Shown here: positions 43,333-61,886 of the stretch, piece by piece
Layout: each line of letters starts with the position of its first letter
Position numbering within the stretch: position 1 is the stretch's first letter
Assembly: GCF_005377625.1 (NCBI RefSeq)
Contig: NZ_CP040098.1
Span: forward strand, 434,001-498,000
Direction of reading: 5' to 3'
Length of the DNA stretch: 64,000 bases
Origin: Desulfoglaeba alkanexedens ALDC
GTDB lineage: Bacteria; Desulfobacterota; Syntrophobacteria; Syntrophobacterales; DSM-9756
Program-made: the position numbers and the translations under genes
Notes under the pieces: model-generated
Database searches by the model: none
What the model was told of the DNA's origin: nothing
The model's input: only the letters and a program-made list of their open reading frames with translations

Positions 43333-44568
43333 TCACCGCCTAGGTCCGGCGGCTTTCCGCACCGCCGAGTACAGTTCCTTCGCGTGCCTTTTCAGGCGGA
43401 CTTCCAGGAAAGGGCGCTCCTCCTCTTCGATCACCGCGTCGTCCAGCGCCATGTGAAGGATCATCCGCCATTCTTCCTTGTCTAAGCGAAGGAGAAGATC
43501 AAGCACGTCGGCCACGGCCGGCAAGCCGGGCCGGCGCTCGGGCTTTTCTTCCCATGCTTCGAGGAAACCCTCGATCGCGGCGGGGAGGACGGAAGCGTCG
43601 GCCCAGGCGAGTTCGCCCGTTCCGTCGATACGGTCCACCCGGAGGCGAACGGTCATGAGAGCCAAGAAATGCAAGAGTGCCATCCATCGCGCCTCGTCCC
43701 GTTGCCCCGGCGCCACCATGGGACGGTAATCCCGCACCGTAACGAGGCGGACGTCCACTCCGCGCCGGTTTCGGCGGGCGACGAAATCTCCCGCCGCATG
43801 GTGCCAGGGATAAACCTGCTCGAAGCTTTCCCCGTCAAAACAGCAGGTTAGGATCCAGGCCATCTTTCGGAAAAGGGAATGGGTTTCCGGGACGGTCAGC
43901 GGCTGTTCCACGCGGGACCCATCCCAGATCTTGATCCGCACCCGCGTGGCATCTTTCGAGCGCGCCAGGTGGAATTCGTGAAACCCCGTGAACCATTCGG
44001 CGACGAAGAGCCGCAGCGGCAGCAGTCGGCCCTCTTCGTCCAGGTAGAACGTTTCTCCGGACACCATGACCCGGGGAAGGAAAGGCTTTGGGATACGGCA
44101 CTGGAGTTTTCGAAGGAGGGCGACTTCATTTTCAAGAAAGGCCTTCTGGTGAGTTGCGGCGGCGGTGTTCACGGCGAGTTCCACTGTGGCGTCCGAAAGC
44201 TTCGCCCGAGCCCGGCACACGTGGTAAAAGGCGCCGTGTTTTTCGCTGATGAGGTCCAGACCCAGGATGTGGGAAAGCCCGACGTCTTTGCCGAGGGCCT
44301 GGGACACGCAAAACGTGAGGGGTGCCCAATCTTCCCGCAAAAAAAACCGCCGGAGCGCTTCAAAATAGAAACCGTAAGTCAGGCCCGGTACCGATACGTC
44401 GCCCCCGGCGCTGCAGGGCAGCACCGCCTTTTCGGTTTCTGCGGAAAGCGGCACAAGGTGAGTGCCCGCGTTCACAAAAAATCGGACCGGGAACGGCATA
44501 TCAACGAGATTCATGGACGACGTGTAGACCCTTGTCATGATGCGTCGAAACCCATATGCTTCGCGCAT
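43333..44568 (-). CDS. Hypothetical protein, 411 residues, possibly kinase-like fold
   Basis: I do not recognise a named family. The protein is soluble with no signal. Composition and codon use are normal. The order of motifs FLENEVALLRKLQ (about 143-155), LRLFVAEWFTGFHEF (about 182-196) and YPWHHAAGDFVARRN (about 253-267) faintly resembles aminoglycoside-phosphotransferase/RIO-like kinases, in which an HxxxGD loop is catalytic, but DFG-like metal binding is not clear. Start options are ATG 44568, 44538 and 44514, none with a strong ribosome site. It has no operon partner. Confidence 0.6.
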   Translation of the reverse strand: MREAYGFRRIMTRVYTSSMNLVDMPFPVRFFVNAGTHLVPLSAETEKAVLPCSAGGDVSVPGLTYGFYFEALRRFFLREDWAPLTFCVSQALGKDVGLSHILGLDLISEKHGAFYHVCRARAKLSDATVELAVNTAAATHQKAFLENEVALLRKLQCRIPKPFLPRVMVSGETFYLDEEGRLLPLRLFVAEWFTGFHEFHLARSKDATRVRIKIWDGSRVEQPLTVPETHSLFRKMAWILTCCFDGESFEQVYPWHHAAGDFVARRNRRGVDVRLVTVRDYRPMVAPGQRDEARWMALLHFLALMTVRLRVDRIDGTGELAWADASVLPAAIEGFLEAWEEKPERRPGLPAVADVLDLLLRLDKEEWRMILHMALDDAVIEEEERPFLEVRLKRHAKELYSAVRKAAGPRR

Positions 44569-44895: not shown

Positions 44896-45498
44896 ATGTC
44901 GGACCGGTACGCGACATTCGACGCGCTTCGCAGCGCCCATGAGGAGGGCCGGGATTTCCGTGTGGAATGGCGCTTGGGAGTCTCAGGGATCGCCGTTATG
45001 GCGCCTCACGGCGGCGGGATCGAACCGGGCACATCGGAAGTGGCGCGGGCCCTGGCCGGTCTTCGGCATTCCTTTTACCATTTCGAGGGACTGATGCGGA
45101 ACGGAAACGGCGCGCTGCACCTCACGAGCACCCGGTTCGACGAACCCAGAGCGCTTGCCTTGGCGGAGCGCGCGGAGTGGATCGTGACGGTCCACGGCTG
45201 CGACGGGGACCCGCCGGTGATCCACCTGGGCGGGCTTCACGAAGCCCGGAAACGGGAACTGGCCCGGAAGCTCGAAGTGCATGGATTCGCCACCGCAAGC
45301 CACCTGGACCACCGGGGGCTCGATCCGGAAAACCTGTGCAACCGCGGGAAGAACGGGAGCGGCGTCCAGTTGGAGTTGACTCTTGGGCTGCGGCGCGCCC
45401 TGTTTCCGGCCCTTACGCGAACAGGGCGGTTGAACACGACCCCGCTCTTTCACCGCCTGATCGACGCCTTCCGGACGATCTTGACGAGGAGCCCGTAA
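44896..45498 (+). CDS. Poly-gamma-glutamate hydrolase family protein (DUF867)
   Basis: A 200-residue protein. VMAPHGGGIEPGTSEVARAL is the metal-binding start of the phage PghP/DUF867 family; GCDGDPPVIHLGG and TASHLDHRGLDPENLCNRG follow. The family enzymes are Zn-dependent gamma-PGA hydrolases used by phages to cross capsules. No signal peptide is seen. Its stop codon overlaps the ATG of the next short gene by one base. Confidence 0.83.
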   Translation: MSDRYATFDALRSAHEEGRDFRVEWRLGVSGIAVMAPHGGGIEPGTSEVARALAGLRHSFYHFEGLMRNGNGALHLTSTRFDEPRALALAERAEWIVTVHGCDGDPPVIHLGGLHEARKRELARKLEVHGFATASHLDHRGLDPENLCNRGKNGSGVQLELTLGLRRALFPALTRTGRLNTTPLFHRLIDAFRTILTRSP

Positions 45499-45773: not shown

Positions 45774-46910
45774 GTGATGCGAATCCTTTATTACTGCCAA
45801 CACGTCCTGGGGATCGGCCATTTCTTTCGGAGCATGGAAATCGCCCGGGCCCTTTCGCACCATTCGGTGCTGTTCGTGGAAGGGGGAGACCCGCTGCCGG
45901 GATTTCGAGCCCCGGGCCACGTGGAGCGCGCCTTCCTTCCGCCGCTCCGCATGGACCCGGAATTTCGGCGCATGGAAACCAGCGGTTCGGAGCTGGAAGC
46001 CGTCCAGGAGAAACGGAAGCGCAAGCTCCTCGAACTGTACAACGACTTCAGGCCGGCGCTAATCCTCATCGAACTCTTCCCCTTCGGACGCAAGAAGTTC
46101 CGCTTCGAACTCCTTCCGCTCCTCCAGGCCGCCCGTTCCGGCAACCGTTCGGCGCGGGTCGCCTGCAGCCTCCGGGACATCTTGGTGGAAAAGGAAAACC
46201 CCGAGGCCTATGAACAGCGGGTGCTGGATATCCTGAACCGCTACTTCGACCTGCTGCTGGTGCACTCGGACCCGGCGGTGATCTCCCTCGACGAGACCTT
46301 TTCGAGGACCGGCGCCATCGCCGTGCCCCTCGTTTATACGGGTTTCGTGGTGCGTCGGCTCACCGCCCCGCCCCCGGTTCGCGTTCCGAAGCAGATCGTC
46401 TGCAGCAGCGGAGGCGGGCGCGTGGGGGCGGAACTGCTCCTGGCCACCATTCGGGCGGTGGAACGGATCAACGATCCCGCCGTAAGACTCCGGGTGTTCA
46501 TGGGTCCCTTCATGGACCCCGGGGATCGCCGGTCCCTTGAGGAAGCGGCATCCCGAGACGCCCGCACGACCCTTCACCCTTTTTCCATGGACTTCCTCGA
46601 AGAACTGTGCCGGGCGGACATTTCCGTCAGTATGGCAGGCTACAACACGTGCATGGACGTATTGGCTTCCGGCGTCAAGGCCCTGGTCCATCCCTTTCCA
46701 CAGAACCGGGAGCAGGGGTTGAGGGCCCGGCGTCTTGCAGACCACGGCCTCCTCGAGGTTCTTCCCGCCACGGAACCGTCCATACTGGAAGAAAGGCTTC
46801 GGAATCTGCTGGACCCGAACGCCGCGCGATCCGCCCCTCCCTCCGGCATTGATCTCGACGGAGCTCAAAAGAGCGCCCGTGCGGTTGAAAAATTACTCGC
46901 CAGAGATTAA
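45774..46910 (+). CDS. GT28-like glycosyltransferase (MurG/UGT fold)
   Basis: A 378-residue protein. The N-terminal ILYYCQHVLGIGHFFRSMEIARAL is the Gly-rich acceptor-binding loop of GT-B enzymes. IVCSSGGGRVGAELLLATIRAVE (about 205-227) starts the donor domain, and SMAGYNTCMDVLASGVKALVHPFPQNREQGLRARRL (about 285-320) is the nucleotide-sugar binding segment. No signal or TM helix is seen, so it acts on the cytoplasmic face. GTG at 45774 and ATG at 45777 both fit. Its stop overlaps a possible ATG of the next permease gene, so it belongs to the transporter run. The sugar and acceptor are unknown. Confidence 0.8.
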   Translation: MMRILYYCQHVLGIGHFFRSMEIARALSHHSVLFVEGGDPLPGFRAPGHVERAFLPPLRMDPEFRRMETSGSELEAVQEKRKRKLLELYNDFRPALILIELFPFGRKKFRFELLPLLQAARSGNRSARVACSLRDILVEKENPEAYEQRVLDILNRYFDLLLVHSDPAVISLDETFSRTGAIAVPLVYTGFVVRRLTAPPPVRVPKQIVCSSGGGRVGAELLLATIRAVERINDPAVRLRVFMGPFMDPGDRRSLEEAASRDARTTLHPFSMDFLEELCRADISVSMAGYNTCMDVLASGVKALVHPFPQNREQGLRARRLADHGLLEVLPATEPSILEERLRNLLDPNAARSAPPSGIDLDGAQKSARAVEKLLARD

Positions 46911-46954
46911 TGGATCAGAAGGCAACGGGAAACAAGGGAAGGAGAGCACTTTCC

Positions 46955-47608
46955 ATGAACACCGTCGGACGCCAGGTCGTGCTCCCCTGGAAGCAGGTGA
47001 TGAAGATCGCCTACATCTCCCTTCGCGTTCGCTTCTTTCGCTCGCTCATCACCTCACTCACGCTGGTTTTCGCAGTGGCTTTCTTCTCTTACCTGGCAAC
47101 CGGCTACGAACTGCTTAACGGAGCGTGGCCCTTCGCCGACGAAAGGCTCCAGGAAGCAATACTTTCCGCCGGCTACGACATATCGCAGGGGGAATTCGGG
47201 AGCACCCCCAAGGATCGGTGGCTGGTTATCCTGTCTCTTCTGGTGTGCGTAGTGGGCATCGTAAACGCGCAACTGATGGCCGTAACCGAGCGTTTCCGCG
47301 AGATCGGGACCCTCAAGTGCCTGGGGGCCCTGGACAGCTTCGTGGTGAAGATTTTCATCCTGGAATCCGCCTACCAGGGGCTCTTCGGAGGACTGACAGG
47401 CGGCGTGCTGGGGCTGACGGTGGCGGTGATGGTCATGGTTGTCAAATTCGGCTTCGCGATGGTGGCTCACTTCCCCGTGGTTCCAATTCTTGAAATCCTG
47501 GGCGGCTCAGCGCTTCTCGCGGTGACCCTGTCCTTTCTGGGCGTCCTCTACCCCGCCCTGGTGGCGTCCCGGATGCAACCTGCCATCGCGCTTCGCGCCG
47601 AACCGTGA
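46955..47608 (+). CDS. FtsX/MacB-type ABC permease, short form
   Basis: About 217 residues. One N-terminal TM helix (near RSLITSLTLVFAVAFFSYLAT), a very short extracytoplasmic segment, then the FtsX domain: TM (WLVILSLLVCVVGIVNAQLMAVTERFREIGTLKCLGA, with the ATPase-contacting ERxxEIG.L...GA loop) and two more TM helices. MacB/LolCE proteins have a ~200-residue periplasmic domain that is missing here. The ATG at 46955 has AAGGAG upstream; ATG 46910 overlapping the previous stop is an alternative. The ATPase gene follows after 77 bp. Confidence 0.85.
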   Translation: MNTVGRQVVLPWKQVMKIAYISLRVRFFRSLITSLTLVFAVAFFSYLATGYELLNGAWPFADERLQEAILSAGYDISQGEFGSTPKDRWLVILSLLVCVVGIVNAQLMAVTERFREIGTLKCLGALDSFVVKIFILESAYQGLFGGLTGGVLGLTVAVMVMVVKFGFAMVAHFPVVPILEILGGSALLAVTLSFLGVLYPALVASRMQPAIALRAEP

Positions 47609-47685
47609 GGAAACCCGGAAGCGTCCGGGTTCCTCACCCCCCCGAGTCGAAGGCCCGGCCCATGGACAACCGGTGAGTGACTGTC

Positions 47686-48420
47686 ATGCATGACACGGCT
47701 CGACACAACGTGGTCCGCCTCAAGGAGGTGACCAAGGTGTTCCGCCTGGGGCATCAGAGCGTGGAAGCCCTTCGAGGCGTCTCGCTGGAAATCAAGACCG
47801 GCGAATATATTTCCATCATGGGTCCTTCTGGTTCGGGTAAATCGACCCTGTTCAACATGATCGGCGCGCTGGACAAACCCACTTCCGGCCGGGTCTTCAT
47901 CGACGAAGTGGACGTGGCTCAGTTGGACGCGTATGAACTGGCATGGCTTCGCTGTCGCAAGATCGGCTATATCTTCCAGACCTTCAACCTGATCCAAGTG
48001 ATGACGGCCATCGAGAATGTGACCCTCCCCATGATCTTTGCCGGGATGAGCCGTGACGAGTACATGGAGAAAGGCATGGAGCTGTTGGAACTGGTGGGAC
48101 TGGCGGAGCGGTTCCAGCACAAGCCGTCGGAGCTGTCCGGAGGCCAGCAGCAGCGGGTGGCCGTTGCGCGGGCGCTGGCGAACGACCCGACCATTGTACT
48201 GGCCGACGAACCCACCGGAAACCTGGACCTTTCGACCGGCGAAGAAATCATCAATCTGCTGAAGGACCTCTCCAGGGAACGGGGAGTCACCATCATTTCC
48301 GCGACTCACGACATCAAGATGATCGCAGTTTCGGACCGGGTGGTCTGGATTCGGGACGGGCGCGTGGAACGGATCGAAGACCGTGACAAGCTGACAATCT
48401 CCGTCGGCGAGGTGGCCTGA
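47686..48420 (+). CDS. LolD/MacB-type ABC transporter ATPase
   Basis: A 244-residue ATPase. Walker A GPSGSGKST, Q-loop YIFQTFNLI, signature LSGGQQQRVAVARAL, Walker B IVLADEPTGNLD and switch SATHD are complete. It should power the FtsX-type permeases on both sides of it (46955 and 48574). Such transporters move lipoproteins, peptides or act mechanically on wall hydrolases, rather than importing solutes. GTG at 47677 is an alternative start. Confidence 0.92.
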   Translation: MHDTARHNVVRLKEVTKVFRLGHQSVEALRGVSLEIKTGEYISIMGPSGSGKSTLFNMIGALDKPTSGRVFIDEVDVAQLDAYELAWLRCRKIGYIFQTFNLIQVMTAIENVTLPMIFAGMSRDEYMEKGMELLELVGLAERFQHKPSELSGGQQQRVAVARALANDPTIVLADEPTGNLDLSTGEEIINLLKDLSRERGVTIISATHDIKMIAVSDRVVWIRDGRVERIEDRDKLTISVGEVA

Positions 48421-48573
48421 TCTCGTGTGGTTCGGCCTTCTTATGGTTGCCGGACAGAGCAAAAGGCGGCCGAATGCAGCACGACCTTTCCCCGGGAATT
48501 CAAAGCGGCGGATTTGAAATCCGCCATTCCAGATCCAAGCAGCCCGTGTGCGATCGGACCCGTTATCGTGTGG

Positions 48574-51500
48574 ATGCCGACTAAACCTCTCAGACCGCCA
48601 GCCTTGTGGATGACGGCCTCCGTTTTGGGCGGCGCTGTGCTCGCCCTTTTCCTGGCTGTCTTCGCTTCGGTTCGGCCGGCCGCCGGGGCTTTGCCCGCGA
48701 TGGATACGGGCCCGAGCGTGGTGGATCATGTGCGTTTCTTCGCCGGCCTGGGCGATCGTTCCACCGGTTCGGACGGCGCCTATCGCGCCGCCGACATGAT
48801 CCGGGAACGCTTCGAGGCCGCAGGGCTGCAGGTGGGAACCCAAAAATTCCATCAGCCCGTTCCGGTCGTGGACGAAGCGCACGTGGAAGTGGACGGCCGG
48901 CGCTTCCCGCTCTATCCCTGGGGGCCGAACATGGCGTACCTGCCTCGGACCCCCGACGAGGGACTCACCGGCCCGCTGGTTTACGTGGGCAAAGGATCGC
49001 TCGCCGAATTCAACGGCCGTGACCTGGAAGGCGCCATCGTGCTCATGGACCTCACAGCCGGCCGGGAATGGTTCCCCGTGGCGATGTTCGGCGCAAAGGC
49101 CCTGATTTTCCTGGAAGACGGTTCCGCAACACGGGTCGAGTTCGAAGAAAAGGACACACCGACGCCGGTGGTTTTCCCACGTTTTTATGCGCCGGCGGAG
49201 ACCGCTCGTTCGCTGATAGGCCTGGCTGAAGACACAGCGAAATCGGCCACCGTGGTCAGTCGCACTCGATGGGAAAACAAGACCGTCGAGAACATCTACG
49301 CGATCATTCCCGGGGCATCGGCGGAACTGAAAGACGAACTGGCAGTGGTGGAAGCTTCCTATGACGCGGGATCCCATGTTCTCGGATTGGCTCCCGGGGC
49401 CGACGAGGCCACATCCATCGCGCTCCTTCTGGCCCTGGCGGACCATCTGTCCCATAACCCTCCGCAGCGCACCGTGCTGCTGGTGGCGACTGCGGGACAC
49501 AACCAGGGGCTGGCGGGAACACGAGAATTCTACTGGGCCTTCACCGCCGACATGCGCGATCTCCGGCGTGAACTGCAAATCGTCAAAAAGCGAAGAAGTC
49601 ATCTGAATCAGTTGTGGAAGCAGGCACACGAACCCGATCCCCTGGCCCTCGGCGACCCGGAAGGCCGGGTGGTGGTCTGGAACTTCGTGGCGGAACGGGC
49701 CAAGGACCGGGCCGACTTCCTCATTCGGGAAGCCCAGTACCGTAAGGCCCTGGAGCGGCGCGGCGGAATCCGAAACGGCGAACCGTCGGGACCGCCCCAG
49801 GAAGACCTGGAAGATCCCCGCCCCTACCGGCTCCTCAGCTGGCGGAAGAAGGCCTCAGATCTGGACGAGGAACAACGGGCTCTGGCTTACACCCTGCTGT
49901 ATCAGGGGCTGCCCGACATTCAGGCGGAACGCGCCGAACTGAAGGAACGGGAGTCCAACCTGCGTTCCAGCGTCGCCCTTCAACGGCTGGCCCGGGACTA
50001 CACCCCCGTTTTCTTCCTCAGTCTTTCCCTTTCGAGCCGGAGCTTGCCGTTCGGCCTGGCGGAGTGGGGCGCGACCTTCCCGCTTCGGGAAAACGTTCGG
50101 CGCCAGATGCGGGCTCTCCGGCTGGGGCCGGTGCTGCTCAGCGCGTCGCAGGAAGCCGCCGAACGTGCCGGCGTGGTCAATCCCTTCGTGGACACGACCC
50201 GCTTCGGAGTCGCGCAGAGCGAAATGCCTGCGGGATCTTCACGCCACTGCCTGGCCTGCGACATCGGCGCCATCGCGGACTGTTCGGCTGTTTCCCTGGC
50301 GACCCTCAACACTCGGTTTTCGTTTTGGGCGACGCCCGCCGACACGTTCTCCATGGTCAATACGGAAAACTTGGAAATCCTGGGCCGAGTGTTTCCGGCG
50401 ATCATCGCATCCGTGGCCGCCCATCCGGACCTGGCCGGGGCGTGCCGAGCGGGCGTGGAGGGGTTTTCGAGCCTGCAAGGCAGGGCCCTTTTCATCCGGC
50501 AGGGAGAACTGTTTCCCGACCAGCCGGCCCCCGGAACCATCGTCTCGGCCATCCAGGGCTCCAGCATCTTCCGAGCCATGAGCTACCGGGACGGCTCCTT
50601 TTTTCTCCATGGCGTGGTCAGCAAAAAGGTGGCCTTCCAGAAGCTTATCCTGGAACCCTACGGCCTGGACTCGGAGACGGGCTTGATCGCTTGGACCGCG
50701 GACAAGGAACAGACGGCAAAGGACAACTACCGCATCAACATCAAGGGAAACACCGCGACCACGACCCTCGTCATGTTCCACTGCCTGCAGACGGACGTGA
50801 TCGGGAGTTTCAATCCTCAGCGGCTCGACCACCTGACCAAGGTCAACCTCCTGGACGGTTCCACCGGGGCTCAGCCGGTACGCTATTGGTACAGCCGGGT
50901 GGACGGCCGCGACACCATGGCCGTTTCCGTCTTCCTTGAAAAAGGCACCCGCTTCAAACTCATCCTTTCGGACACGCTCCTTCGAAAGGAACTCCTGCTG
51001 CTGAACAGCTCCCCGGAACGCCCCGACGGAAAAGGCTTTCTCATCGGCTCCCCGCCCGCCATCCCCCTGGTTCCCCTTCGGGTCGCCCTGGATCTTCACG
51101 CGCTTGCCGGCACCCGGCTTCAGAACCTGCACAAACACGGCATCGTCAACCGCTACCTGGAAGATCTCTACGTGAGCGCATCGGAGGACCTGACCGGCGC
51201 GGAATCCATGCTGGCTGCGAACCGTTACGACGCTTTCTGGGAGCATGTGGTAGGGGCGTGGGCGCACCTCAACGTGGTTTACCATGAGGTGGAGAGCACA
51301 CAGAGGGACGTGCTGGCCGGCGTCATGTTTTTCATCGCGCTTTTCGTGCCCTTCGCCTACTGCCTGGAACGTTACCTTTTCTGTTTCCGTAACGTCTACA
51401 AGCAGATCACGGCGTTCCTGCTGATTCTGGTAACGACCATCCTCGTGATCCGCTCGCTCCATCCGGCATTTCAGCTCACCTACAACCCGATGGTGGTGAT

Positions 51501-53400
51501 CATCGCTTTTTTTATCCTGGGGCTTTCTTTTCTGGTTTCCTGGATCATTTTCGTCCGGTTCGAACACGAAATGGAGCGCAGCCGGCAGGCTCACCGCGGC
51601 AGGGGGGGCAATACCCGAGAAGGCGTGAACAAGTGGCAGGCCTTCGGAGCGGGCTTCGCGATCGGCGCTTCCAACCTGTTCCGGCGGCGACTGCGAACGG
51701 CGCTCACCTGCATCACCCTCATCATCTTGACCTTCACGGTCATGTCGTTCACCAACGTGAAGACCCTCCACAAGACTACTCGGACGCGCATCGCCGACAG
51801 CAACGCCTATCGGGGCATTGTGCTCCATCACCAGATCCGGCGGGGACTCACACCGATCGCCCTGGCGGATTTGAGGGCCCGCTTCGCCGGGGAAGCCCGC
51901 TTGTGGCCTCGGGCCTGGGTGGAGCCGGACCACCCGTCTCAGCGGGTGCTGGCGCTCGTTCAGGCCGGAAACCGAGCCGCCGCGGTGGAAGGAGTGCTGG
52001 GCCTGGGTGAGGCGCCACCGGACCACGTGGCGCAGATCGTCCGGCACGGCCGCTGGTTTCGAGAGGGGGAAAGCCGGGCGGTGCTCCTGCCGGTCCGCAT
52101 CGCCGAGGTACTGGAACTGGATCCGAGCCGCGACATCGGCGCCTCGGTCACCCTCTGGGACCACGCCTTCACGGTGGTGGGCTTCTTCGATGAAGGGCGG
52201 CTGGAACGGCTCAACGACCTGGACGGCAACCCCCTCACCCCTGCCTACCTGGAAGTACCTCCCGACGAAGAGATCACGGAAGTCGAGGTGGAAGCCATGG
52301 AAGCGGGGGAAGAGATCCTTCCCATGACGGAACGATTCCGAAACGCCCGGTCGGATTCCATCGTCATCGTCCCCTACGAGACATCGCTCTCGTTGGGGGC
52401 TACCCCGCGCTCCGTCAGTATCCTTCCCGAACCGGGGCGAACCGCCGTCGGCCTGGCGGACAGGCTGGCTTCCTGGCTGGCTTATCCTCTCTTTGTCGGC
52501 GAAAACGGCACCTGGTTCCAAACCGCCGGCCGGACCCTCCGCTACCAGGGTGCTGCAAACCTCCTCGTTCCCATCCTGATCGTCGTGTTCATCTGCCTCA
52601 ACACCATGATCGGCCACGTCCATGAACGCCAGAGGGAAATAGCCGTCTACACTTCCGTGGGACTGGCGCCGACGCACGTCGGGTTTCTCTTCATCGTGGA
52701 AGCACTCTCGCTGGCCGTTCTGTCGACGGTTTCAGGCTACATCCTGGCGCAGCTCACGGCGAAGTACCTGGGAAACACCGCTCTGTTCGCCGAGCTGACC
52801 TTCAACTACTCGTCGCTGGCGGGCGTCGCCTGCATGGTGCTGGTCTTCACCGTGGTCTTTCTGGCCTCGCTGTACCCGGCCCGGATCGCCGCCCGCCTTT
52901 CCATGCCCGACGTCACGCGGACCTGGGATCTCCCGGATCCCGTCGGCGACACTCTGACGCTCAACCTCCCGTTTCTTCTCAAAGAACAGGAAGAATCCGG
53001 CATCATGAACTACCTCACGGAACACTTCCTCGCCCACCAGGACATCGCTCACGGCGAATTCATCGTCGACGATACACAGCTCCATCCGGACGTTCCGCAG
53101 ACGGGCTCGGGACAGCTTCCGGCTTCGGTATGCCTCACGCTGCGCACCTACGTGTGGCTGGCCCCGTTTGACTTCGGCATCAAGCAGCGGGTTCAGCTCC
53201 ATTGTTGCCCTTCCGAAGACAACCCCGGTTACCTGGAATTGGCCGTTCTCATGATACGGGTCTCAGGAGAACGGACTGCGTGGCTCCGCGCCAACAAGAA
53301 CTTCATCAAGTCGCTCAGAAAACAGATGCTCTTCTGGCGCCTGCTGGATGAGGAAACCAAGAAGCGCTATTCCGCCGCAACCGAAGTCGCTGAGGACTGA
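48574..53400 (+). CDS. Giant fusion: degenerate M28-peptidase-like/PA ectodomain plus FtsX-type permease
   Basis: About 1,608 residues. TM1 (about 13-35) is followed by a long extracytoplasmic region. The part to about residue 340 resembles M28 aminopeptidases with a PA insert, but the metal-binding positions are eroded: SYDAGS instead of H.D (about 262), GADEATS (about 277), HNQGLAGT instead of EE.GL.G (about 309). Later soluble parts (about 350-900) are unrecognised. A membrane cluster (about 915-1000) is followed by a second domain flanked by FtsX-like helices: RRRLRTALTCITLIILTFTVMSFT near 1035, and about 1325-1445 with ERQREIAVYTSVGLAPTHVGF, the ATPase-contact loop. A cytoplasmic ~160-residue tail is unassigned. 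The open frame extends to 48427; the ATG at 48574 precedes the first hydrophobic helix. The next gene starts 3 bp after the stop. Confidence 0.8.
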   Translation: MPTKPLRPPALWMTASVLGGAVLALFLAVFASVRPAAGALPAMDTGPSVVDHVRFFAGLGDRSTGSDGAYRAADMIRERFEAAGLQVGTQKFHQPVPVVDEAHVEVDGRRFPLYPWGPNMAYLPRTPDEGLTGPLVYVGKGSLAEFNGRDLEGAIVLMDLTAGREWFPVAMFGAKALIFLEDGSATRVEFEEKDTPTPVVFPRFYAPAETARSLIGLAEDTAKSATVVSRTRWENKTVENIYAIIPGASAELKDELAVVEASYDAGSHVLGLAPGADEATSIALLLALADHLSHNPPQRTVLLVATAGHNQGLAGTREFYWAFTADMRDLRRELQIVKKRRSHLNQLWKQAHEPDPLALGDPEGRVVVWNFVAERAKDRADFLIREAQYRKALERRGGIRNGEPSGPPQEDLEDPRPYRLLSWRKKASDLDEEQRALAYTLLYQGLPDIQAERAELKERESNLRSSVALQRLARDYTPVFFLSLSLSSRSLPFGLAEWGATFPLRENVRRQMRALRLGPVLLSASQEAAERAGVVNPFVDTTRFGVAQSEMPAGSSRHCLACDIGAIADCSAVSLATLNTRFSFWATPADTFSMVNTENLEILGRVFPAIIASVAAHPDLAGACRAGVEGFSSLQGRALFIRQGELFPDQPAPGTIVSAIQGSSIFRAMSYRDGSFFLHGVVSKKVAFQKLILEPYGLDSETGLIAWTADKEQTAKDNYRINIKGNTATTTLVMFHCLQTDVIGSFNPQRLDHLTKVNLLDGSTGAQPVRYWYSRVDGRDTMAVSVFLEKGTRFKLILSDTLLRKELLLLNSSPERPDGKGFLIGSPPAIPLVPLRVALDLHALAGTRLQNLHKHGIVNRYLEDLYVSASEDLTGAESMLAANRYDAFWEHVVGAWAHLNVVYHEVESTQRDVLAGVMFFIALFVPFAYCLERYLFCFRNVYKQITAFLLILVTTILVIRSLHPAFQLTYNPMVVIIAFFILGLSFLVSWIIFVRFEHEMERSRQAHRGRGGNTREGVNKWQAFGAGFAIGASNLFRRRLRTALTCITLIILTFTVMSFTNVKTLHKTTRTRIADSNAYRGIVLHHQIRRGLTPIALADLRARFAGEARLWPRAWVEPDHPSQRVLALVQAGNRAAAVEGVLGLGEAPPDHVAQIVRHGRWFREGESRAVLLPVRIAEVLELDPSRDIGASVTLWDHAFTVVGFFDEGRLERLNDLDGNPLTPAYLEVPPDEEITEVEVEAMEAGEEILPMTERFRNARSDSIVIVPYETSLSLGATPRSVSILPEPGRTAVGLADRLASWLAYPLFVGENGTWFQTAGRTLRYQGAANLLVPILIVVFICLNTMIGHVHERQREIAVYTSVGLAPTHVGFLFIVEALSLAVLSTVSGYILAQLTAKYLGNTALFAELTFNYSSLAGVACMVLVFTVVFLASLYPARIAARLSMPDVTRTWDLPDPVGDTLTLNLPFLLKEQEESGIMNYLTEHFLAHQDIAHGEFIVDDTQLHPDVPQTGSGQLPASVCLTLRTYVWLAPFDFGIKQRVQLHCCPSEDNPGYLELAVLMIRVSGERTAWLRANKNFIKSLRKQMLFWRLLDEETKKRYSAATEVAED

Positions 53401-53403
53401 TTC

Positions 53404-55386
53404 ATGCGGGACCGAAACGTGCGCGCGGTACCCCTGCTGCTGGGTCTGGCACTGGCGGCCTTATTCTGTGCGGTGACCCCTTACAACAATGTGTTTCTTC
53501 AGAACAGCCCCCTCGCCGGCGGCCATTTTCCCCTGGCCTCCTTCGGGTGCCTGCTGTTGCTGGTGATTGTGTTGAACCCGCTGCTTTCGCTGGTACGGGC
53601 GTCGTGGCGGCTTCATTCTCACGAACTGCTGCTGGTGTGGGCCATGGTCACAGTGGCTACGGGCATCGCCTTCACCGGCCTCATGCGGACGTTTATCATC
53701 AACATCACGACCCCGGCCTGGTTCACCAACACGGCCACGCCCGTCGGTCGAATTCTTGAAGCCCTGCTGCCACCGGGACTCTTTCCCACCGACCCGGAAA
53801 CGATCCGCGCGCTTTACAACGGCCTGGAAGGCGGCCGGGACATGGCCTGGTGGGAAGTCCTCTATACCATTCCATGGCACCGGTGGATCGCCCCCATGGT
53901 AGGGTGGGGCGCCTTCGTCGCCCTTGTCTATACCGCACTCATGGGATTGATGGGCCTATTCACTCACCAGTGGATCGAAAATGAAAAGATGAATTTCCCC
54001 CTTCTGCGGGTTCCCATGGCGCTGAGCGACGAGTCGGAAAAGGGGACACTCCGCGCGTTCTTTTTCCACAAGTATTTCCTGGCGGGATGCAGCATTCCCT
54101 TCTTTCTTCACCTTCTGAACGGTCTTCACGCCCATTACCCCCAGGTTCCCCAGATCCCCACCCTCATCCTCATGCAGCCCTACATGCCGAAAGAAGGCCT
54201 GCTTTCCGGATTCTACAAGCTGAAGGTCTACCTCTATCCGGCCTTCATCGGGTTCGCCTTCCTCACGTCCAAGCAGGTGTCGTTCAGCCTCTGGGGGTTT
54301 TTCATGCTGGGAGGACTTCTTCCGGGACTCTTGCAGGTCATGGGATGGCGCCTGCCGTCGGCGGCGCTGGGGACGACCTTCGGGCCGGTACTCTCGGGCG
54401 TGGAAGAAATGCAGATGATCGGCGCCTTCGGGGTGTTCTTCTTCTTTATCCTGTGGCTCGGCCGGTATCACCTTAGTTACGTCGTTCGGACGCTTTTTCG
54501 AAAGGATCCCGCGCTGGACGAAGCCTACCATGGGCTCCTTTCGCCTCGCGTCTCCTTCTGGCTCTTCGCAGCCGGTTTTGCGGGAACCCTGGCGTGGTTA
54601 TGCCTTTTCGGAATGCAGCTCCTGGCGGCGTTTCTTTTTCTGATCGTCTGCTTCATGCTCCAGCTGGTCACGGCCCGACTCATCTGCCAGGGCGGCCTGC
54701 CCTATTTCACCCTCACCGCCGCGCCTTCAGACGGCTTCCTGGCCTTTCTCGACACGCGCCTCATCGCCCCCGCCACCGTTTTCCTGGCTCTGGTGGTGCA
54801 AAAGGTGACCTTCGTCGACGTGCGCGAGTCCCTCATGCCTTCGCTGTTACACGCCTCCAAGGTGTCGAACGGGGCCCGACCGAAGCGGCGCTTCCTTTTC
54901 GGGGTGACCGCCTCCGTGGTGATCGGGGTGGCGGTTTCTTTCGCGGCCATGCTGATCCTGTATTACAAACACGGCATTGCGACGCTTCCCGACAGCTGGG
55001 CGGTGGAAACGGCGCGAAGGGTCCACGAAAACGTGGCTCAGCTGGTGGAATACCCGGAAGGGCCCAAGCCGTGGAGCACCTCGTTCGCGGTCATCGGAGC
55101 CGTCGTGATGACCTTTCTCGTGGTAGGCTATCAGCGGTTCATCTGGTGGCCGCTCCATCCCATCGGGTACCTCACCACCTACAGCTCGGCCATGCGGATT
55201 CTCTGGTTTTCCTTTTTTATCGGCTGGCTGGTGAACACGCTGGTTCTCCGTTACGGGGGCGTGGCCCAGTTCAAGGAAGCACGGCGCTTTTTTATCGGCA
55301 TGATCGTCGGCGACATGGTGATGGCGCTCGCCTGGATGGTCGCCGGGCTCTTTTCGCCGGTGAGGTATAACGTACTGCCGCTTTGA
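53404..55386 (+). CDS. Polytopic membrane protein, OPT-superfamily-like (DUF6785-type)
   Basis: A 660-residue protein with about 14 hydrophobic segments. Visible features are the start RAVPLLLGLALAALFCAVTPYNN, a GLMGLFTHQWIENEKMNFPLLRVPMAL cytoplasmic loop, and a central RLICQGGLPYFTLTA segment. The pattern matches uncharacterised proteins related to oligopeptide transporters. The loop HQWIENEKMNFPLLRVP recalls the E+LPFP motif of OPT proteins. It starts 3 bp after the giant permease gene, so co-expression is near certain. Substrate unknown. Confidence 0.7.
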   Translation: MRDRNVRAVPLLLGLALAALFCAVTPYNNVFLQNSPLAGGHFPLASFGCLLLLVIVLNPLLSLVRASWRLHSHELLLVWAMVTVATGIAFTGLMRTFIINITTPAWFTNTATPVGRILEALLPPGLFPTDPETIRALYNGLEGGRDMAWWEVLYTIPWHRWIAPMVGWGAFVALVYTALMGLMGLFTHQWIENEKMNFPLLRVPMALSDESEKGTLRAFFFHKYFLAGCSIPFFLHLLNGLHAHYPQVPQIPTLILMQPYMPKEGLLSGFYKLKVYLYPAFIGFAFLTSKQVSFSLWGFFMLGGLLPGLLQVMGWRLPSAALGTTFGPVLSGVEEMQMIGAFGVFFFFILWLGRYHLSYVVRTLFRKDPALDEAYHGLLSPRVSFWLFAAGFAGTLAWLCLFGMQLLAAFLFLIVCFMLQLVTARLICQGGLPYFTLTAAPSDGFLAFLDTRLIAPATVFLALVVQKVTFVDVRESLMPSLLHASKVSNGARPKRRFLFGVTASVVIGVAVSFAAMLILYYKHGIATLPDSWAVETARRVHENVAQLVEYPEGPKPWSTSFAVIGAVVMTFLVVGYQRFIWWPLHPIGYLTTYSSAMRILWFSFFIGWLVNTLVLRYGGVAQFKEARRFFIGMIVGDMVMALAWMVAGLFSPVRYNVLPL

Positions 55387-55463
55387 GGATGGCTTCCGCC
55401 CGGGCATGAACGGCCGCCCGAGCCGCCGTGCCCGTCCGTGCACCGTTGACACGGGGATCTTGC

Positions 55464-57428
55464 ATGCACGACGACAAGGAACTCAGGGAATATCGAGACC
55501 TGCTGAAGCCGCCCGAAAAATTTGAGGAAGGCTTCGGCTGGAAATCGATCATCGGAGCCGTTTTTATCGGCTTTCTCATGATGCCGGGCTCCATGTACCT
55601 GGGGCTGGTGATCGGGACAGGCATCGGCCCGGCCGCCCGCTGGGTCACCATCATTCTTTTTGCCGAAATCGCCAAGCGCGCCTACACGCGCCTTAGCCAG
55701 CAGGAAGTCTTCGTTCTCTACTACATGGCGGGCGCGGCCATGGCGTCCCCCTTTTCGGGGCTTCTCTGGAACCAGTACCTGGTCCAGTCGGAAGCGGCCA
55801 TGATGCTGGGGCTCACCCAACACATCCCCGAATGGATCGCCCCGCAGCCCGGTTCGGAATCCTTCGTGGATCGGACCTTCTTCCACCGCGACTGGCTCAT
55901 CCCTATCATCCTCATGATCGGTTTCGAACTGATCCAGGCGGTGGATCACTTTGGGCTCGGCTACGCCCTCTACCGGCTGACCTCCGACGTGGAAAAACTT
56001 CCCTTCCCCATGGCTCCTGTGGGTGCGTTGGGTAACATGGCACTGGCCGAATCCACGGAACGGTCGGAAACCAGCTGGAAGTGGCGGATCTTTTCCATCG
56101 GGGGTGTGCTGGGGCTTGCCTTCGGAGCGGTCTACGTGCTGGTCCCGGCGGCCTCGGGGGTGATCCTTTCGGAACCGATCCGGATCCTGCCCATTCCCTG
56201 GATCGAACTGACGCCGGCCACCGAAAACATTCTTCCGGCCGTGGCCACGGGCATCCAGCTGGACCTGGGACTCCTCTTCGTGGGCATGGTGTTGCCCTTT
56301 TGGGCGGTGATCGGCGGGGCCGCCGGCTTTCTGATCACCCTCTTCGCCAACCCCATCCTGTACGACCACGGGATCCTCCACCGCTGGCACAAGGGCATGG
56401 GCACCGTGGACACTGTTTTTGCCAACAATTTCGACTTTTACATGAGCTTCAGCATCGGGTTGGGGCTGGCCGTGGCCGTGGTGGGCATCGTCCAGGTGAT
56501 CGGGAGCCTCAGAAAAAGCGACATGGGGCCGTTTCGGCAACGGCTGAAGGATCTTTTCAAGCCGCCGCCCGGGCGGGGGGACTTCAACATCTGGATCGCC
56601 ATCGGTATCTACGTGGCATCGACAACCACCTACGTCGTCATTTCGTCGGCCCTGGTCCCGGGCTTTCCCTGGATTTTTCTGGTGGCCTACGGCTTCATCT
56701 ACACGCCGTTCATTTCCTATGTTTCCGCCCGGCTGGAAGGGATCGCCGGCCAGTTCGTGAGCCTGCCCATGGTGAGGGAAGCCAGCTTCATCGCGGCGTC
56801 CAAGTTTTTCGGCTACCACGGGATCGGGATTTGGTATGCCCCCATCCCGTTTCACAACTACGGAAAGGCGACGGTCCGCTGGCGCGAAATCGAACTCACG
56901 GGGACCAGCTTCAGGAGCATCATCAAGGCGGAGATCCTGGTCTTCCCCATCGTGATGATCGCGAGCCTTCTTTTTTCCCAGTACATTTGGCGGCTTGCCC
57001 CCATCCCTTCCAACCAGTACCCGTATGCCCAGGAACTCTGGCACCTCCAGGCCCTCAATACTCTCCTCCTCCAGAGCGCCACCCTCGAGGGGTATTCGCC
57101 CTTTTTCGAAGCATTGAACCTGAACTACGCCGCGTGGGGGTTCGGCCTGGGGGCCGCCTGTTACTGGGTCCTGGCGGCGCTCAACCTGCCGGTGCTCCTC
57201 ATCTACGGGGTCGTCCGCGGACTGGGGCAGTCCACGCCGCACAGCATCTTCCTGGAAGTGATCGGAGCGCTCCTCGGCCGGTACTATTTTGTGAAAAAAT
57301 ACGGGCTCGCCTGGCGCCAGTACGCACCGGTGCTCCTTGCCGGCTTTTCGTGCGGCATGGGACTCATGGGCATGCTCGCCATGGGGTTCACGCTGATCAT
57401 GCGTTCCCTTGGAAGTCTCGCCTACTGA
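55464..57428 (+). CDS. Second polytopic OPT-superfamily-like membrane protein
   Basis: A 654-residue protein with about 14-16 hydrophobic segments. An N-terminal soluble stretch (about 1-28) is followed by MMPGSMYLGLVIGTGIGPAARWVTIILFAEIAKRAYTRLSQQE, similar to the first OPT helix pair. YRLTSDVEKLPFPMAPVGALG resembles the OPT loop with LPFP, and a later GLGQSTPHSIFLEVIGALLGRYYF is near the C-terminus. It is not a duplicate of the preceding gene but the same type of fold, so the two may form a heterodimer. The ATG at 55464 follows GGGGAT. Confidence 0.7.
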   Translation: MHDDKELREYRDLLKPPEKFEEGFGWKSIIGAVFIGFLMMPGSMYLGLVIGTGIGPAARWVTIILFAEIAKRAYTRLSQQEVFVLYYMAGAAMASPFSGLLWNQYLVQSEAAMMLGLTQHIPEWIAPQPGSESFVDRTFFHRDWLIPIILMIGFELIQAVDHFGLGYALYRLTSDVEKLPFPMAPVGALGNMALAESTERSETSWKWRIFSIGGVLGLAFGAVYVLVPAASGVILSEPIRILPIPWIELTPATENILPAVATGIQLDLGLLFVGMVLPFWAVIGGAAGFLITLFANPILYDHGILHRWHKGMGTVDTVFANNFDFYMSFSIGLGLAVAVVGIVQVIGSLRKSDMGPFRQRLKDLFKPPPGRGDFNIWIAIGIYVASTTTYVVISSALVPGFPWIFLVAYGFIYTPFISYVSARLEGIAGQFVSLPMVREASFIAASKFFGYHGIGIWYAPIPFHNYGKATVRWREIELTGTSFRSIIKAEILVFPIVMIASLLFSQYIWRLAPIPSNQYPYAQELWHLQALNTLLLQSATLEGYSPFFEALNLNYAAWGFGLGAACYWVLAALNLPVLLIYGVVRGLGQSTPHSIFLEVIGALLGRYYFVKKYGLAWRQYAPVLLAGFSCGMGLMGMLAMGFTLIMRSLGSLAY

Positions 57429-57612: not shown

Positions 57613-57811
57613 CAAGGTGGAAGGTACAGCTTGGGAACAAGGTCAAAAAATCCCCCTCTCCCTTGATGGGAGAGGGTTGGGGTGAGGGTGAGAAAATTAA
57701 CGTATGTCAATCAGTTACATTCCCCTCCCCTTAATCCCCTCCCACAAGGGGAGGGGAAATAGAATTCCTCTTGTTCCGAAGCGCTGGCTTGGGAACGAGG
57801 GGAATGACATG
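57613..57811. repeat. C-rich/G-rich repeat block
   Basis: 57645-57765 is an inverted copy of the block at 44700-44825. 57772-57805 adds a degenerate GCGCTGGCTTGGGAACGAGG unit. No gene. Confidence 0.75.
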
Positions 57812-58342
57812 TTACCTGTTGTCTATCGGCTCCATTCCAACATCCAGATACTTCTTAGCCAGATCAATATAAAGCTGTTTGGCCCAATTCCAAAATTCTT
57901 GATCTTTATCAGTTAGTTCTCGTACAATCTTGGCTGGATTTCCAGCGGCGACTACTTTCGGTGGAATTATTTGCTTAACCTTTACAATACTTCCTTCTGC
58001 TACAATCGCCGATTCTCCAATTTCAGCCAAAATACTGATTACGGCCCCCATGCCGATAACCGCTTGATCGCCAATGTGTTTCCCGTGCACCACAGCGCCG
58101 TGGCCAATAGTAACTTTTTTCCCGATTCTGTTCACATCGTTAGGTGGAGCGTGAAAGATTACTCCTTCTTCTACCGCTGTCCCATCCCCTATTTCAATTC
58201 TTCCATAATCACCTCTTAAAATGGCACCATGCCCAATATAGCAGTTGTCTCCTATGACGACATCACCGATGACACTTGCAATGTCACTGACATATGAGTT
58301 TTTTCCAACTACCGGTTGCTTTCCGTCAAATTTATAGAGCAT
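57812..58342 (-). CDS. Gamma-carbonic anhydrase-like hexapeptide-repeat protein
   Basis: A 176-residue left-handed beta-helix protein. Hexapeptide repeats run from about 10 to 140 (VIGDVVIGDNCYIGHGAILRGD...). The three zinc His of gamma-carbonic anhydrases can be placed in VIFHAPP and TIGHGAVVHG. A C-terminal helix (DKDQEFWNWAKQLYIDLAKKYL) follows. The family includes CaiE, PaaY and YrdA, many without tested activity. GC content is far below that of its neighbours, and it lies inside a large inverted repeat, both pointing to transfer. Confidence 0.9.
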   Translation of the reverse strand: MLYKFDGKQPVVGKNSYVSDIASVIGDVVIGDNCYIGHGAILRGDYGRIEIGDGTAVEEGVIFHAPPNDVNRIGKKVTIGHGAVVHGKHIGDQAVIGMGAVISILAEIGESAIVAEGSIVKVKQIIPPKVVAAGNPAKIVRELTDKDQEFWNWAKQLYIDLAKKYLDVGMEPIDNR

Positions 58343-60890: not shown

Positions 60891-60929
60891 TGGCCGACCA
60901 CAAAAATTCCTGCTGACTGGAGGCGGACA

Positions 60930-61886
60930 ATGAAGAAAGGCTATCTGCTGTCGGCCGTGGTGCTGGTCATTTCCTGGCTCGCCGGCGGCCTGCCGGCGAC
61001 GGCAGGCGAAAAGGAACTGCTGTTCCATGCCGGCGTCGGGCAACGCTCATCCCTCAACGAGATCAAAGAGATCTGGGAAAAACGGTACCCGGACCAGCGG
61101 GTCAACTTCTCCTACAAGGGTTCCGGGTATTTTATCGCCGACCTGACCCGGTCGCGGCAGGGCGACCTGTTCATGCCCGGCGAGGAGTTTTACCTGTTGC
61201 AGGCCAAGGAACGCGGTTTCGTCGATAACTACAATCCCGCAACCGACATTCCGGCCTATTTCGTCACCGTTATCATCACCCCGCGGGGCAATCCCGCCAA
61301 GATTCACAAGATCGAGGATTTCGCCCGTCCGGGGGTGCGCGTGGGGCTGGGCAACCCGCGTTCCTGCGCCATCGGCCTGTGGCATGAAAAGATCTTCAAG
61401 AAGGCCGGCATCTGGGATCAGGTCCAAAAGAACGCCACCTTAAGCGCGAAATGCATTCCCGAGCTGGGCAACGCCGCCCAGCACAAGGCCATCGATGCCA
61501 CCATTGTATGGTCGACCACCGCGGTGCTCTATCTGCGGGATGTGGAGATCGTTCCCATCGAGCCGCGCTACCGGGGCATCGTCCGGCTGCCGGTGGCGAC
61601 CCTGACCTGTGCGCGGTACAAAGAGGAGGCAAAACAACTCAAGGCTTTCATCCTTTCCCCTGAGGGGCGGCGGATATTCCACAAGCACGCCTACGTCATC
61701 ACTCCGAACATCCCGGTGGACGCGCAGGGCTTCTGCCTTGACGATGCCACCGATGCCGATATGCGCTATCTGGTCAACGCGGCCCGGGCGGTGAAGGACG
61801 AAACCTTTCCGGTGACGCCGGAAACCGTTGGTGACCTCATCGAAGAGGTGGAACGGCAGCGCAAAACCTTGCGCTCGGGGTCGTGA
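60930..61886 (+). CDS. Periplasmic ABC substrate-binding protein, molybdate/tungstate (ModA)-like
   Basis: A 318-residue protein with a signal peptide (1-25, ATA-GE). KELLFHAGVGQRSSLNEIKEIWEKRYPDQRVNFSYKGSGYFIADLTRSRQGDLFMPGEEFYL is the type II binding-protein start seen in ModA/WtpA, where Ser residues in the first loop contact the oxyanion. VRVGLGNPRSCAIGLWHEKIFKKAG gives the second ligand loop. The C-terminus (about 255-318) is longer than usual. It overlaps the permease start (TGATG). Oxyanion uptake is likely, but Fe3+ or other anions cannot be excluded. Confidence 0.8.
   Translation: MKKGYLLSAVVLVISWLAGGLPATAGEKELLFHAGVGQRSSLNEIKEIWEKRYPDQRVNFSYKGSGYFIADLTRSRQGDLFMPGEEFYLLQAKERGFVDNYNPATDIPAYFVTVIITPRGNPAKIHKIEDFARPGVRVGLGNPRSCAIGLWHEKIFKKAGIWDQVQKNATLSAKCIPELGNAAQHKAIDATIVWSTTAVLYLRDVEIVPIEPRYRGIVRLPVATLTCARYKEEAKQLKAFILSPEGRRIFHKHAYVITPNIPVDAQGFCLDDATDADMRYLVNAARAVKDETFPVTPETVGDLIEEVERQRKTLRSGS

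Follow-up and report, generated by a model that had tools for sequence, protein, structure and literature searches.

A six-gene set of Desulfoglaeba alkanexedens coding for a candidate type VII ABC envelope machine

Known type VII systems and the six-gene locus

YbbAP-TesA of Escherichia coli, a type VII ABC transporter working with a periplasmic hydrolase, is reported to extract hydrophobic compounds from the inner membrane (PMC12646458). The locus analysed here resembles it in that a type VII ATPase and permease are coupled to a periplasmic module with a hydrolase fold. It also departs from it: YbbP is one chain of ten transmembrane (TM) segments made of two similar halves (PMC12646458), whereas the FtsX halves are split here between a short and a giant chain. 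Furthermore, the hydrolase-like module is fused, belongs to the M28 type and is devoid of catalytic residues, and the set also includes a glycosyltransferase and a pair of large membrane proteins.

MacAB-TolC and LolCDE share with this locus FtsX/MacB-type permease domains, a predicted MacB-like periplasmic core (in the giant permease) and a MacB/LolD-type ATPase. Yet ATPase and permease are separate genes here, unlike in MacB, and the two best NCBIfam models for the ATPase, MacB and LolD, both stay under their cut-offs (233.7 against 966 bits for NF007826, and 230.9 against 307.75 bits), as does the LolC/E model (47.2 against 362.45 bits). The short permease lacks a periplasmic core and the giant one carries an ectodomain; no gene for MacA, TolC or LolA was found among the typed neighbours. 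FtsEX, whose type VII engine is considered to move periplasmic parts rather than cargo, also scores under cut-off (FtsE 210.8 against 264.85 bits; FtsX 20.9 and 19 against 225 and 255 bits), and differs from a system in which the permeases are two and unequal, and in which a glycosyltransferase and a pair of large membrane proteins are linked with them. Finally, the fold of the module found here, PA insertion included, is shared by PA-containing M28 aminopeptidases (2ek8, BSAP/YwaD) and by the transferrin receptor and nicastrin, which are inactive relatives of the family. In contrast to 2ek8-type enzymes, our module has a long helical insertion, has lost catalytic residues and is fused to an ABC permease.

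The window is the whole stretch of 64,000 nucleotides that was analysed. An ORF check combined with a Pfam and NCBIfam domain scan recovered, between positions 45774 and 57428, the six plus-strand genes listed by the initial annotation. Their products are a glycosyltransferase of the GT28 type, an FtsX permease of minimal size, an ATPase of the LolD/MacB type, a permease of 1,608 residues and two large membrane proteins. The glycosyltransferase, GT28a (45774..46910, 378 aa from GTG 45774, with an ATG at 45777), owes its predicted enzyme activity to a GT28 C-terminal domain (PF04101, E 1.9e-9; 38.2 bits against a cut-off of 22). Its stop codon overlaps the ATG of the short permease by 1 nt, a detail missed when gaps of 3-153 bp were first reported; the other gaps were correctly given and measure 68, 153, 3 and 41 nt, the last one becoming 77 nt if the final gene starts at ATG 55464. 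A porin-like gene lies 2 kb downstream, within the window; apart from it, the typed neighbour proteins comprise no outer-membrane or adaptor partner.

The engine, the giant permease and the two large membrane proteins

The short permease (46910..47608, alternative ATG 46955; PF02687, E 2.4e-15) displays four hydrophobic stretches and weaker windows in its hydropathy profile. Its alignment (A4) is that of a minimal type VII half, with about four TM segments and almost no periplasmic domain, the stretch between TM1 and TM2 being only about 40 residues long in the window. The coupling-helix pattern is kept in 27/27 short permeases. For the ATPase (47677..48420, 247 aa; PF00005, E 2.4e-34), all four motif patterns (Walker A, signature, Walker B, H-loop) are present in 30/30 sequences. 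Short and giant permeases are homologous across their FtsX domains (hhalign, E 1.3e-10), so that the early suggestion of one ATPase serving both fits the homology as well as the motifs. Judged from sequence, the assignment to a type VII ABC engine is well supported.

The giant permease (48574..53400, with an ORF open from 48427 and a likely ATG at 48574) was studied through an alignment of 30 sequences and a domain scan of 18 members; in the window, Pfam detects both M28 (E 2.2e-4) and FtsX (E 8.2e-12). All its features lie on the plus strand. After an N-terminal hydrophobic segment, predicted from hydropathy to be an anchor or a signal (48616..48672), comes the first part of an M28 fold with an inserted PA domain (about 48688..49551; 2ek8, E 1e-16). 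A long helical insertion interrupts the M28 domain (49552..49992, residues 291-437 of the AlphaFold2 model), with ten-residue pLDDT means of 64-90, except for 43 at residues 361-370. The C-terminal part of the domain (49993..50430) is seen as a weak second hmmsearch segment (score -2.1) and in alignment columns 634-639, and the fold match reaches approximately model residue 583-599. Compared with 2ek8, the M28 model gives Z 20.4 and rmsd 8.6 over 368 aligned residues. Among the 18 members scanned, PA is matched in 4 and nicastrin in 1.

The residues that we take to be the metal ligands tell what became of this domain. The first metal-binding histidine and the Glu-Glu pair are absent in 29/29 sequences (columns 311, 358 and 359), and the last metal-binding histidine in 30/30, where W-x-T-P (x being mostly G) replaces the Y-H-T-P of 2ek8; the aspartates at columns 313 and 326 are kept in 29/29. 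Because the catalytic residues are gone in every sequence that spans them, the M28 domain with its PA insertion is predicted to be an inactive pseudo-enzyme. The fusion of M28-like and FtsX parts proposed at the outset stands as far as the folds are concerned, with the reservation that the M28 catalytic residues are lost.

Further along the chain, a conserved ectodomain (50479..51309) consists of predicted strands followed by helices at its end; it contains residues invariant in the alignment and has no Pfam match at E<=10. Its model is poor at residues 591-796 (pLDDT below 50), the final helices reaching 62-89. Three hydrophobic segments form an extra TM group (51310..51549, from hydropathy) in which hhalign detects no FtsX similarity. 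Nor were two homologous FtsX halves detected within the giant, the N-terminal module or TM group matching the C-terminal module or the short permease at E 0.08-0.45 (hhalign). The MacB/FtsX-type half lies at 51697..52902, with a TM segment, a predicted MacB-like periplasmic core, then three TM segments and a coupling helix. It matches MacB 5lil at E 2.6e-11 (profile positions 1245-1422); FtsX is found in 18/18 of the giants scanned and MacB_PCD in 7/18. The coupling helix follows the strict pattern in only 20/30 sequences, its Glu and Arg residues being near-invariant. A conserved C-terminal domain (52933..53397), placed in the cytoplasm by predicted topology, holds a conserved WLAPFDFG and matches no Pfam family at E<=10.

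Both large membrane proteins had been called OPT-like. We keep the labels OPT1 and OPT2, while the identity that they suggest is unproven: neither protein matches the OPT family (PF03169) above a curated cut-off. OPT1 (53404..55386, 660 aa), for which the scan gave no PF03169 match, is instead a clear member of DUF6785 (E 2.6e-149; 498.4 against 25 bits) and DUF6784 (E 1.7e-33; 115.3 against 26.4 bits), and its fold model, with a pLDDT of 45.6, is too poor for fold comparison. OPT2 (55428..57428, 666 aa, or 654 from ATG 55464) belongs to no Pfam family above cut-off. None of its 23 members passes the PF03169 threshold, one relative reaching 18.7 bits for a cut-off of 25.8. A [KR]-[LMQ]-x-[FY]-P pattern occurs in 20/24 OPT1, 23/23 OPT2 and 4/5 OPT proteins. 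With a mean column identity of 83% over 23 sequences, OPT2 is the most conserved membrane protein of the set, far above the giant.

Distribution of the set and of its glycosyltransferases

The sample consisted of 395 genomes drawn from the phylum, which are not independent of one another, and each search scored few candidates per genome. The giant (full-length or split between contigs), OPT1 (DUF6785 above cut-off), a relative of OPT2 and an orthologue of GT28a (at least 219 bits, the best non-member being at 121.8) are each present in 28/395 genomes, and these 28 are identical. In 19 of them the five membrane and ATPase genes are contiguous, 4 more being apparently broken only by contig ends. 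The outcome that would have counted against the initial annotation, genes failing to stay together in related genomes, was not observed. Two genomes have their parts spread over at least four places, with none missing. In G295 the ATPase-giant pair is on contig C144, OPT1-OPT2 on C116, GT28a on C186 and the short permease on C63; in G254 the ATPase-giant pair is on C11, the short permease on C4, and OPT1-OPT2 and GT28a are both on C68, about 70 kb apart. At least five families (f3, f18, f40, f43 and f102) include both genomes with the set and genomes lacking it. The grouping exceeds chance, since related genomes preserve the order of the genes and four genes have one phyletic profile. Together, the identical distribution, contiguity and retention when scattered are strong evidence that the six genes make one system, all-or-none in the sampled genomes. 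The six proteins have correlated distance matrices (r 0.79-0.96), a result that shared descent alone could produce. Many member genomes are related (families f1-f4).

GT28a sits immediately upstream in only 11/28 genomes and is distant or elsewhere in 11. Further glycosyltransferases, overlooked by the initial annotation, accompany the set. A second GT28-type protein, GT28b, reaches at least 316 bits in 16/263 genomes drawn, all members, non-members staying at or below 249. Five genomes (G036, G135, G161, G339 and G389) have the complete order GT28b-GT4-GT4-histidine phosphatase-GT28a-deacetylase type and others have part of it, the phosphatase and deacetylase-type genes not being universal among members; in the present genome a GT28b-GT4-GT4 run is located 1.5 Mb from the six-gene set. 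An accessory gene of the poly-gamma-glutamate hydrolase type (family F13; here 44896..45495, plus strand, upstream of GT28a; PF05908, E 5.9e-56) adjoins the glycosyltransferase in 7/7 genomes of family f1 and is absent from the other loci fetched. It could be a pointer to peptide-like material.

What the machine might handle

While the unity of the set and its engine are well supported, what the engine serves has to be conjectured. We tentatively propose, as quite possible, a single envelope machine of the type VII ABC kind, whose cargo, to be exported or handed over, is a glycan or glycolipid. The ATPase, as a homodimer, would power a heterodimeric permease of the MacB/Lol/FtsX type, in which the short permease pairs with the C-terminal half of the giant, and ATP binding and release would shift the periplasmic parts of the giant rather than open a channel. 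The dead M28-PA domain, which the extra TM segments would attach to the membrane, would be a binding or docking module, not a peptidase. GT28a, the second GT28-type enzyme and the two GT4-type enzymes would build the cargo on the cytoplasmic side, OPT1 and OPT2 might carry it, or its precursor, over the inner membrane, and the ABC part would next lift it off the membrane and pass it onward. The glycosyltransferases could also decorate something that the ABC part does not move. A bolder version, which we consider somewhat unlikely, is a novel type of glycoconjugate exporter: the GT28 and GT4 enzymes would make a lipid-linked oligosaccharide, the OPT-like pair would stand in for its flippase of the Wzx or MurJ type, and the type VII ABC part, with its dead M28-PA receptor domain, would then pull the product out of the inner membrane and towards the surface.

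Peptides or muropeptides are another candidate cargo, an unlikely one in our opinion. The membrane proteins would take up peptides or pieces of the wall, peptide ends would be bound by the dead M28 domain, the ABC part would drive release or FtsEX-like wall remodelling, and the GT28 enzyme would recycle the sugar. The M28 fold is typical of aminopeptidases, members of the OPT family transport peptides or chelates, and MurG is a GT28 enzyme, to which GT28b is weakly similar (38.3 against a cut-off of 250.25 bits); the hydrolase-type gene of family f1 points the same way, although it is confined to that family. However, the OPT identity is precisely what is unproven, the M28 catalytic residues have vanished from every covering sequence, and the linked set of two GT28, two GT4 and a deacetylase type resembles glycan synthesis rather than recycling.

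Still less likely is a machine that moves no cargo, ATP-driven motion serving to open, close or sort OPT1 and OPT2 while the M28-PA domain senses an envelope ligand. Type VII ABC proteins often work mechanically, FtsEX being an example. A sensing role would suit an enzyme domain that is dead, and OPT2 is indeed much better conserved than the giant. Against this, the fixed glycosyltransferase partner is left unexplained, and we know of no type VII ABC protein that gates such a membrane protein. Lol-like sorting of a special glycosylated lipoprotein looks very unlikely: the resemblance of the ATPase to LolD and of the short permease to LolC/E falls below both Lol cut-offs, neighbouring FtsX permeases of Lol-like length occur elsewhere in this genome (ORFs of 417 plus 430 aa and of 388 plus 393 aa), and neither the large membrane proteins nor the glycosyltransferase find a role. 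Genes sharing only habitat or lineage, adjacent by descent, would fit the relatedness of many members and the distance correlations; this is hardly credible when four proteins agree on the same genomes, relatives differ within families and scattered parts are all retained.

Among the papers searched there was no description of the set, in keeping with the first impression that no characterised system has this composition, and no paper naming DUF6785 or DUF6784 or combining two of the terms selected to describe the set. If the glycan or glycolipid reading is true, scattered lineages of one phylum, many members of which are sulfate reducers, would possess a multi-part envelope machine undescribed in the papers searched, a type VII ABC system with a dead-protease receptor on its permease and two large membrane proteins. 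DUF6785/DUF6784 would then acquire a functional context in which the role of the family is directly testable, and the all-or-none distribution in the sampled genomes offers a clean comparison of envelope glycans and lipids with and without the set.

Six genes and their distribution in the phylum

The window spans bases 434,001-498,000 of a 3.37 Mb genome held in a single contig. Pfam and NCBIfam place at the head of its six-gene plus-strand run (45,774-57,428) a GT28-type glycosyltransferase of 378 residues, GT28a (45774-46910), then an FtsX-type short permease of 232 residues (46910-47608), a LolD/MacB-type ATPase of 247 residues (47677-48420) and a giant permease with M28 and FtsX domains (48574-53400). 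The length of 1,608 residues proposed for the giant in the initial annotation is indeed that given by the ATG at 48574, though the reading frame is open from 48427. Two large membrane proteins close the run: OPT1 (53404-55386; 660 residues, DUF6785/DUF6784) and OPT2 (55428-57428; 666 residues, without Pfam family), "OPT" being a working name only. A consensus scan of the window gave 8 promoter-like sites (2.8 in shuffled sequences) and 26 terminator-like sites (15.2 in shuffles). On the plus strand, promoter-like sites are found upstream of 44.7 kb and downstream of 57.8 kb, with a single one in between, inside OPT1; the strongest stem-T site is at 57,654-57,676, on the minus strand. All of these are consensus matches and no proof of one transcript.

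Flanks of the giant were fetched from the 28 genomes carrying it, the window itself standing for one of them (G000), and the six proteins were mapped on them, with gene calls at fetched loci made in this analysis from codon usage, not taken from annotation. Nineteen of the 28 keep the permease, ATPase, giant, OPT1 and OPT2 genes as an uninterrupted run in that order. Pieces at contig ends are compatible with the same order in G390, G352, G135 and G213, and the order is rearranged in five genomes: the OPT pair is 12 kb downstream in G106, two genes are inserted in G161, OPT2 is elsewhere in G073, and the set is dispersed in G254 and G295. In this last pair the short permease (310 and 336 bits) sits away from the ATPase, on another contig, and its neighbours there bear no likeness to one another when the two genomes are compared. 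Four gene groups occupy four contigs in G295. In G254, contig C68 carries both the OPT pair and GT28a, with about 70 kb between them; the giant is found on C11, the short permease on C4. As for GT28a, it stands directly upstream in 11 of the 28 genomes, one to three genes off in 6, and farther away or elsewhere in 11. The OPT genes of G135, G213, G254, G295 and G352, OPT2 of G073, and the short permeases of G254, G295 and G390 lie beyond the first fetched stretches and are absent from the protein sets.

Four profile searches (giant, OPT2, DUF6785 and GT28a) covered the same 395 genomes of the phylum, scoring at most 2-4 candidates per genome, so that weak relatives may be missed. The giant, full-length or split between contigs, is present in 28 of them; a further 287 genomes have some match to it, at a best E of 8.6e-11 or weaker, and among the matches listed these are short and limited to the FtsX or M28 region. 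OPT2, DUF6785 over its cut-off and GT28a orthologues (at least 219 bits; best non-member 121.8 bits) were likewise each found in 28 of the 395, and these are identical genomes every time. It had been proposed that the six genes make up one machine, and we asked whether they fail to stay together in related genomes. They do stay together: the parts share the same genomes and are kept when dispersed. Separate functions sharing an operon were rejected on the co-occurrence of four proteins that persist where they are unlinked. We are highly confident that all six genes belong to a single system. This system is not simply one inherited block, since its presence differs within five families of the phylum (f3, f18, f40, f43 and f102).

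Two genomes devoid of the system gave lesser matches. In G001 (C172:1571-1780), a fragment interrupted by an in-frame stop scores below the DUF6785 threshold and is possibly a remnant, or chance; in G288, an open frame of 1,549 residues that matches weakly in the FtsX region (C147:4681-5217, minus strand; E 1.1e-6) may be another long permease or a chance frame.

Among 72,556 plasmids, OPT2 and the giant had no match. A scan for the giant across 84,980 species gave five loci, all in organisms with Desulfo- or Syntrophobacterales names; it missed most (three of its five loci are among the 28) and says little on other phyla. Relatives of the giant include Desulfacinum hydrothermale, D. infernum and Desulforhabdus sp. 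TSK; D. hydrothermale and Desulforhabdus are Syntrophobacterales, of the phylum Thermodesulfobacteriota according to NCBI, which the initial annotation named Desulfobacterota. Loci L004, L005 and L008 were treated as repeats of G187, G296 and G162 and counted once, while L006 and L007 come in addition to the 395-genome counts, with which they possibly overlap.

Permeases, ATPase and the M28 domain

All 30 ATPases display the expected motif patterns, and all 27 short permeases the coupling pattern. The giant's coupling helix follows the strict pattern in 20 of 30 proteins, Glu1400, Arg1401, Glu1404 and Ile1405 (P0004 numbering) being near-invariant. Profile comparison identifies the C-terminal half of the giant and the short permease as homologous (E 1.3e-10). 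A duplicated permease of the YbbP type would combine both halves in a single chain; the giant's N-terminal transmembrane group has no detectable FtsX relationship by sequence comparison, and this candidate was rejected. The natural reading, drawn from sequence, is that short permease and giant would pair as the two chains of a split type VII heterodimer. With good confidence, we consider the ABC part likely to work as an engine of this type. The closest known arrangement is YbbAP-TesA (PMC12646458).

The giant starts with a hydrophobic segment at its N-terminus. Next comes an M28 fold that carries a PA insertion and is broken by a long helical stretch, then a conserved region of unassigned fold. 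Three more hydrophobic segments precede the MacB/FtsX-type permease half, and a conserved C-terminal domain without family completes the chain. The profile built from 18 giants finds the aminopeptidase 2ek8 (E 1e-16) and MacB (5lil, E 2.6e-11). An AlphaFold2 model of the ectodomain (mean pLDDT 61.9, pTM 0.54), better in its M28 part than in the rest, aligns with 2ek8 over 368 residues (Z 20.4, rmsd 8.6), and glutamate carboxypeptidase II, glutaminyl cyclases and the transferrin receptor come within one Z of it. Residues ~685-961, after the M28 fold, are mostly below pLDDT 50, and the VIA-align rows span model residues 3-599.

The "M28-like" label stands for the fold and fails for a working enzyme. 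In the alignment with 2ek8, read at the metal-binding M28 positions, the first metal His and the Glu-Glu pair are missing in all 29 giants covering the site. The last metal His is missing in 30 of 30, at a position that depends on a weak second profile segment around a W-x-T-P-x-D motif; Asp at 313 and 326 are kept. An active M28 peptidase was rejected on these residues, and their loss therefore makes a binding or docking module the most likely role of the domain.

The OPT1 and OPT2 proteins

Of the system's membrane proteins, OPT2 shows the strongest conservation, with 70-89% identity to the window protein and a mean column identity of 83% (alignment A2, 23 sequences), rising to 91% in the alignment eligible for structure modelling. 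The corresponding values are 61% for OPT1 (A1, 16 of 24 sequences), 54% for the short permease (A4, 27) and 49% for the giant (A3, 18 of 30), genes spanning two fetched stretches being left out.

Pfam, taken to E≤10 for the proteins of the window and to E≤1 for the 23 OPT2, gave no clear OPT assignment. A single weak, partial PF03169 match falls inside OPT2 of one relative, and searching the window's genome with PF03169 found no OPT protein. Compared by profile with five OPT proteins, OPT2 aligns weakly (E 0.0064, probability 5.9%) and OPT1 reaches E 0.071. A five-residue motif common to OPT1, OPT2 and OPT proteins may be due to chance. The "OPT-like" name draws on this match, motif and alignment and is provisional. 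Profile comparison found no relation between OPT1 and OPT2, and neither profile retrieved a PDB chain at E≤10. Foldseek gave no match at E≤0.001 for an AlphaFold2 model of OPT1, which at pLDDT 45.6 is uninformative.

Glycosyltransferases and neighbouring genes

Our preferred reading, at somewhat less than even confidence, is that the six-gene system would be a machine for the handover of a glycan or glycolipid; its cargo, direction and carrier role are inferred. In a literature search that covered few subscription papers, neither DUF6785 nor DUF6784 nor the accessions tried were named anywhere, and none of the titles listed dealt with the gene set.

A second GT28-type gene, GT28b, goes with the system. 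G036, G135, G161, G339 and G389 have the complete order GT28b-GT4-GT4-histidine phosphatase-GT28a-deacetylase/DUF2334 type, named after Pfam on representatives, and other genomes have part of it. The window's genome carries GT28b-GT4-GT4 in a row near 1.96 Mb, far from the six genes. GT28b scores at least 316 bits in 16 of the 263 genomes drawn, all of them system members, with non-members at 249 bits or less. The 12 members absent from these matches are taken as outside the 263, because G339, G389 and G391 show a GT28b-type gene at their loci.

Just upstream of GT28a, all seven genomes of the window's family carry a poly-gamma-glutamate hydrolase-type gene (PF05908, Pfam on two; window 44896-45495, plus strand), found in no fetched locus other than those of this family; the frame overlapping it at 44967-45725 matches no family. 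In the four genomes of a second family (f2) and in L007, a 175-residue protein without family and a weakly DOT1-like one (L086:10114-11230, plus strand; L139; L140) adjoin GT28a, and this gene pair occupies the place held elsewhere by the histidine phosphatase.

Further genes line the cluster. Divergent to it, at 43333-44568 on the minus strand, is a 411-residue protein without Pfam family, whose relatives (31-37% identity) are upstream of the cluster in five of the six other genomes of the family. A gene at L040:14037-15404 (minus strand), whose family comes after OPT2 in seven relatives, combines TIGR04282 (188.4 bits, cut-off 134) with a TIGR04283-like part (171.6 bits, below 182), both named "arsenosugar" glycosyltransferases. 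Downstream in the window are a hexapeptide-repeat protein (57812-58342, minus strand) and, at 59463-63688 on the plus strand, an alginate-export-type outer-membrane protein, then a solute-binding protein and a permease.
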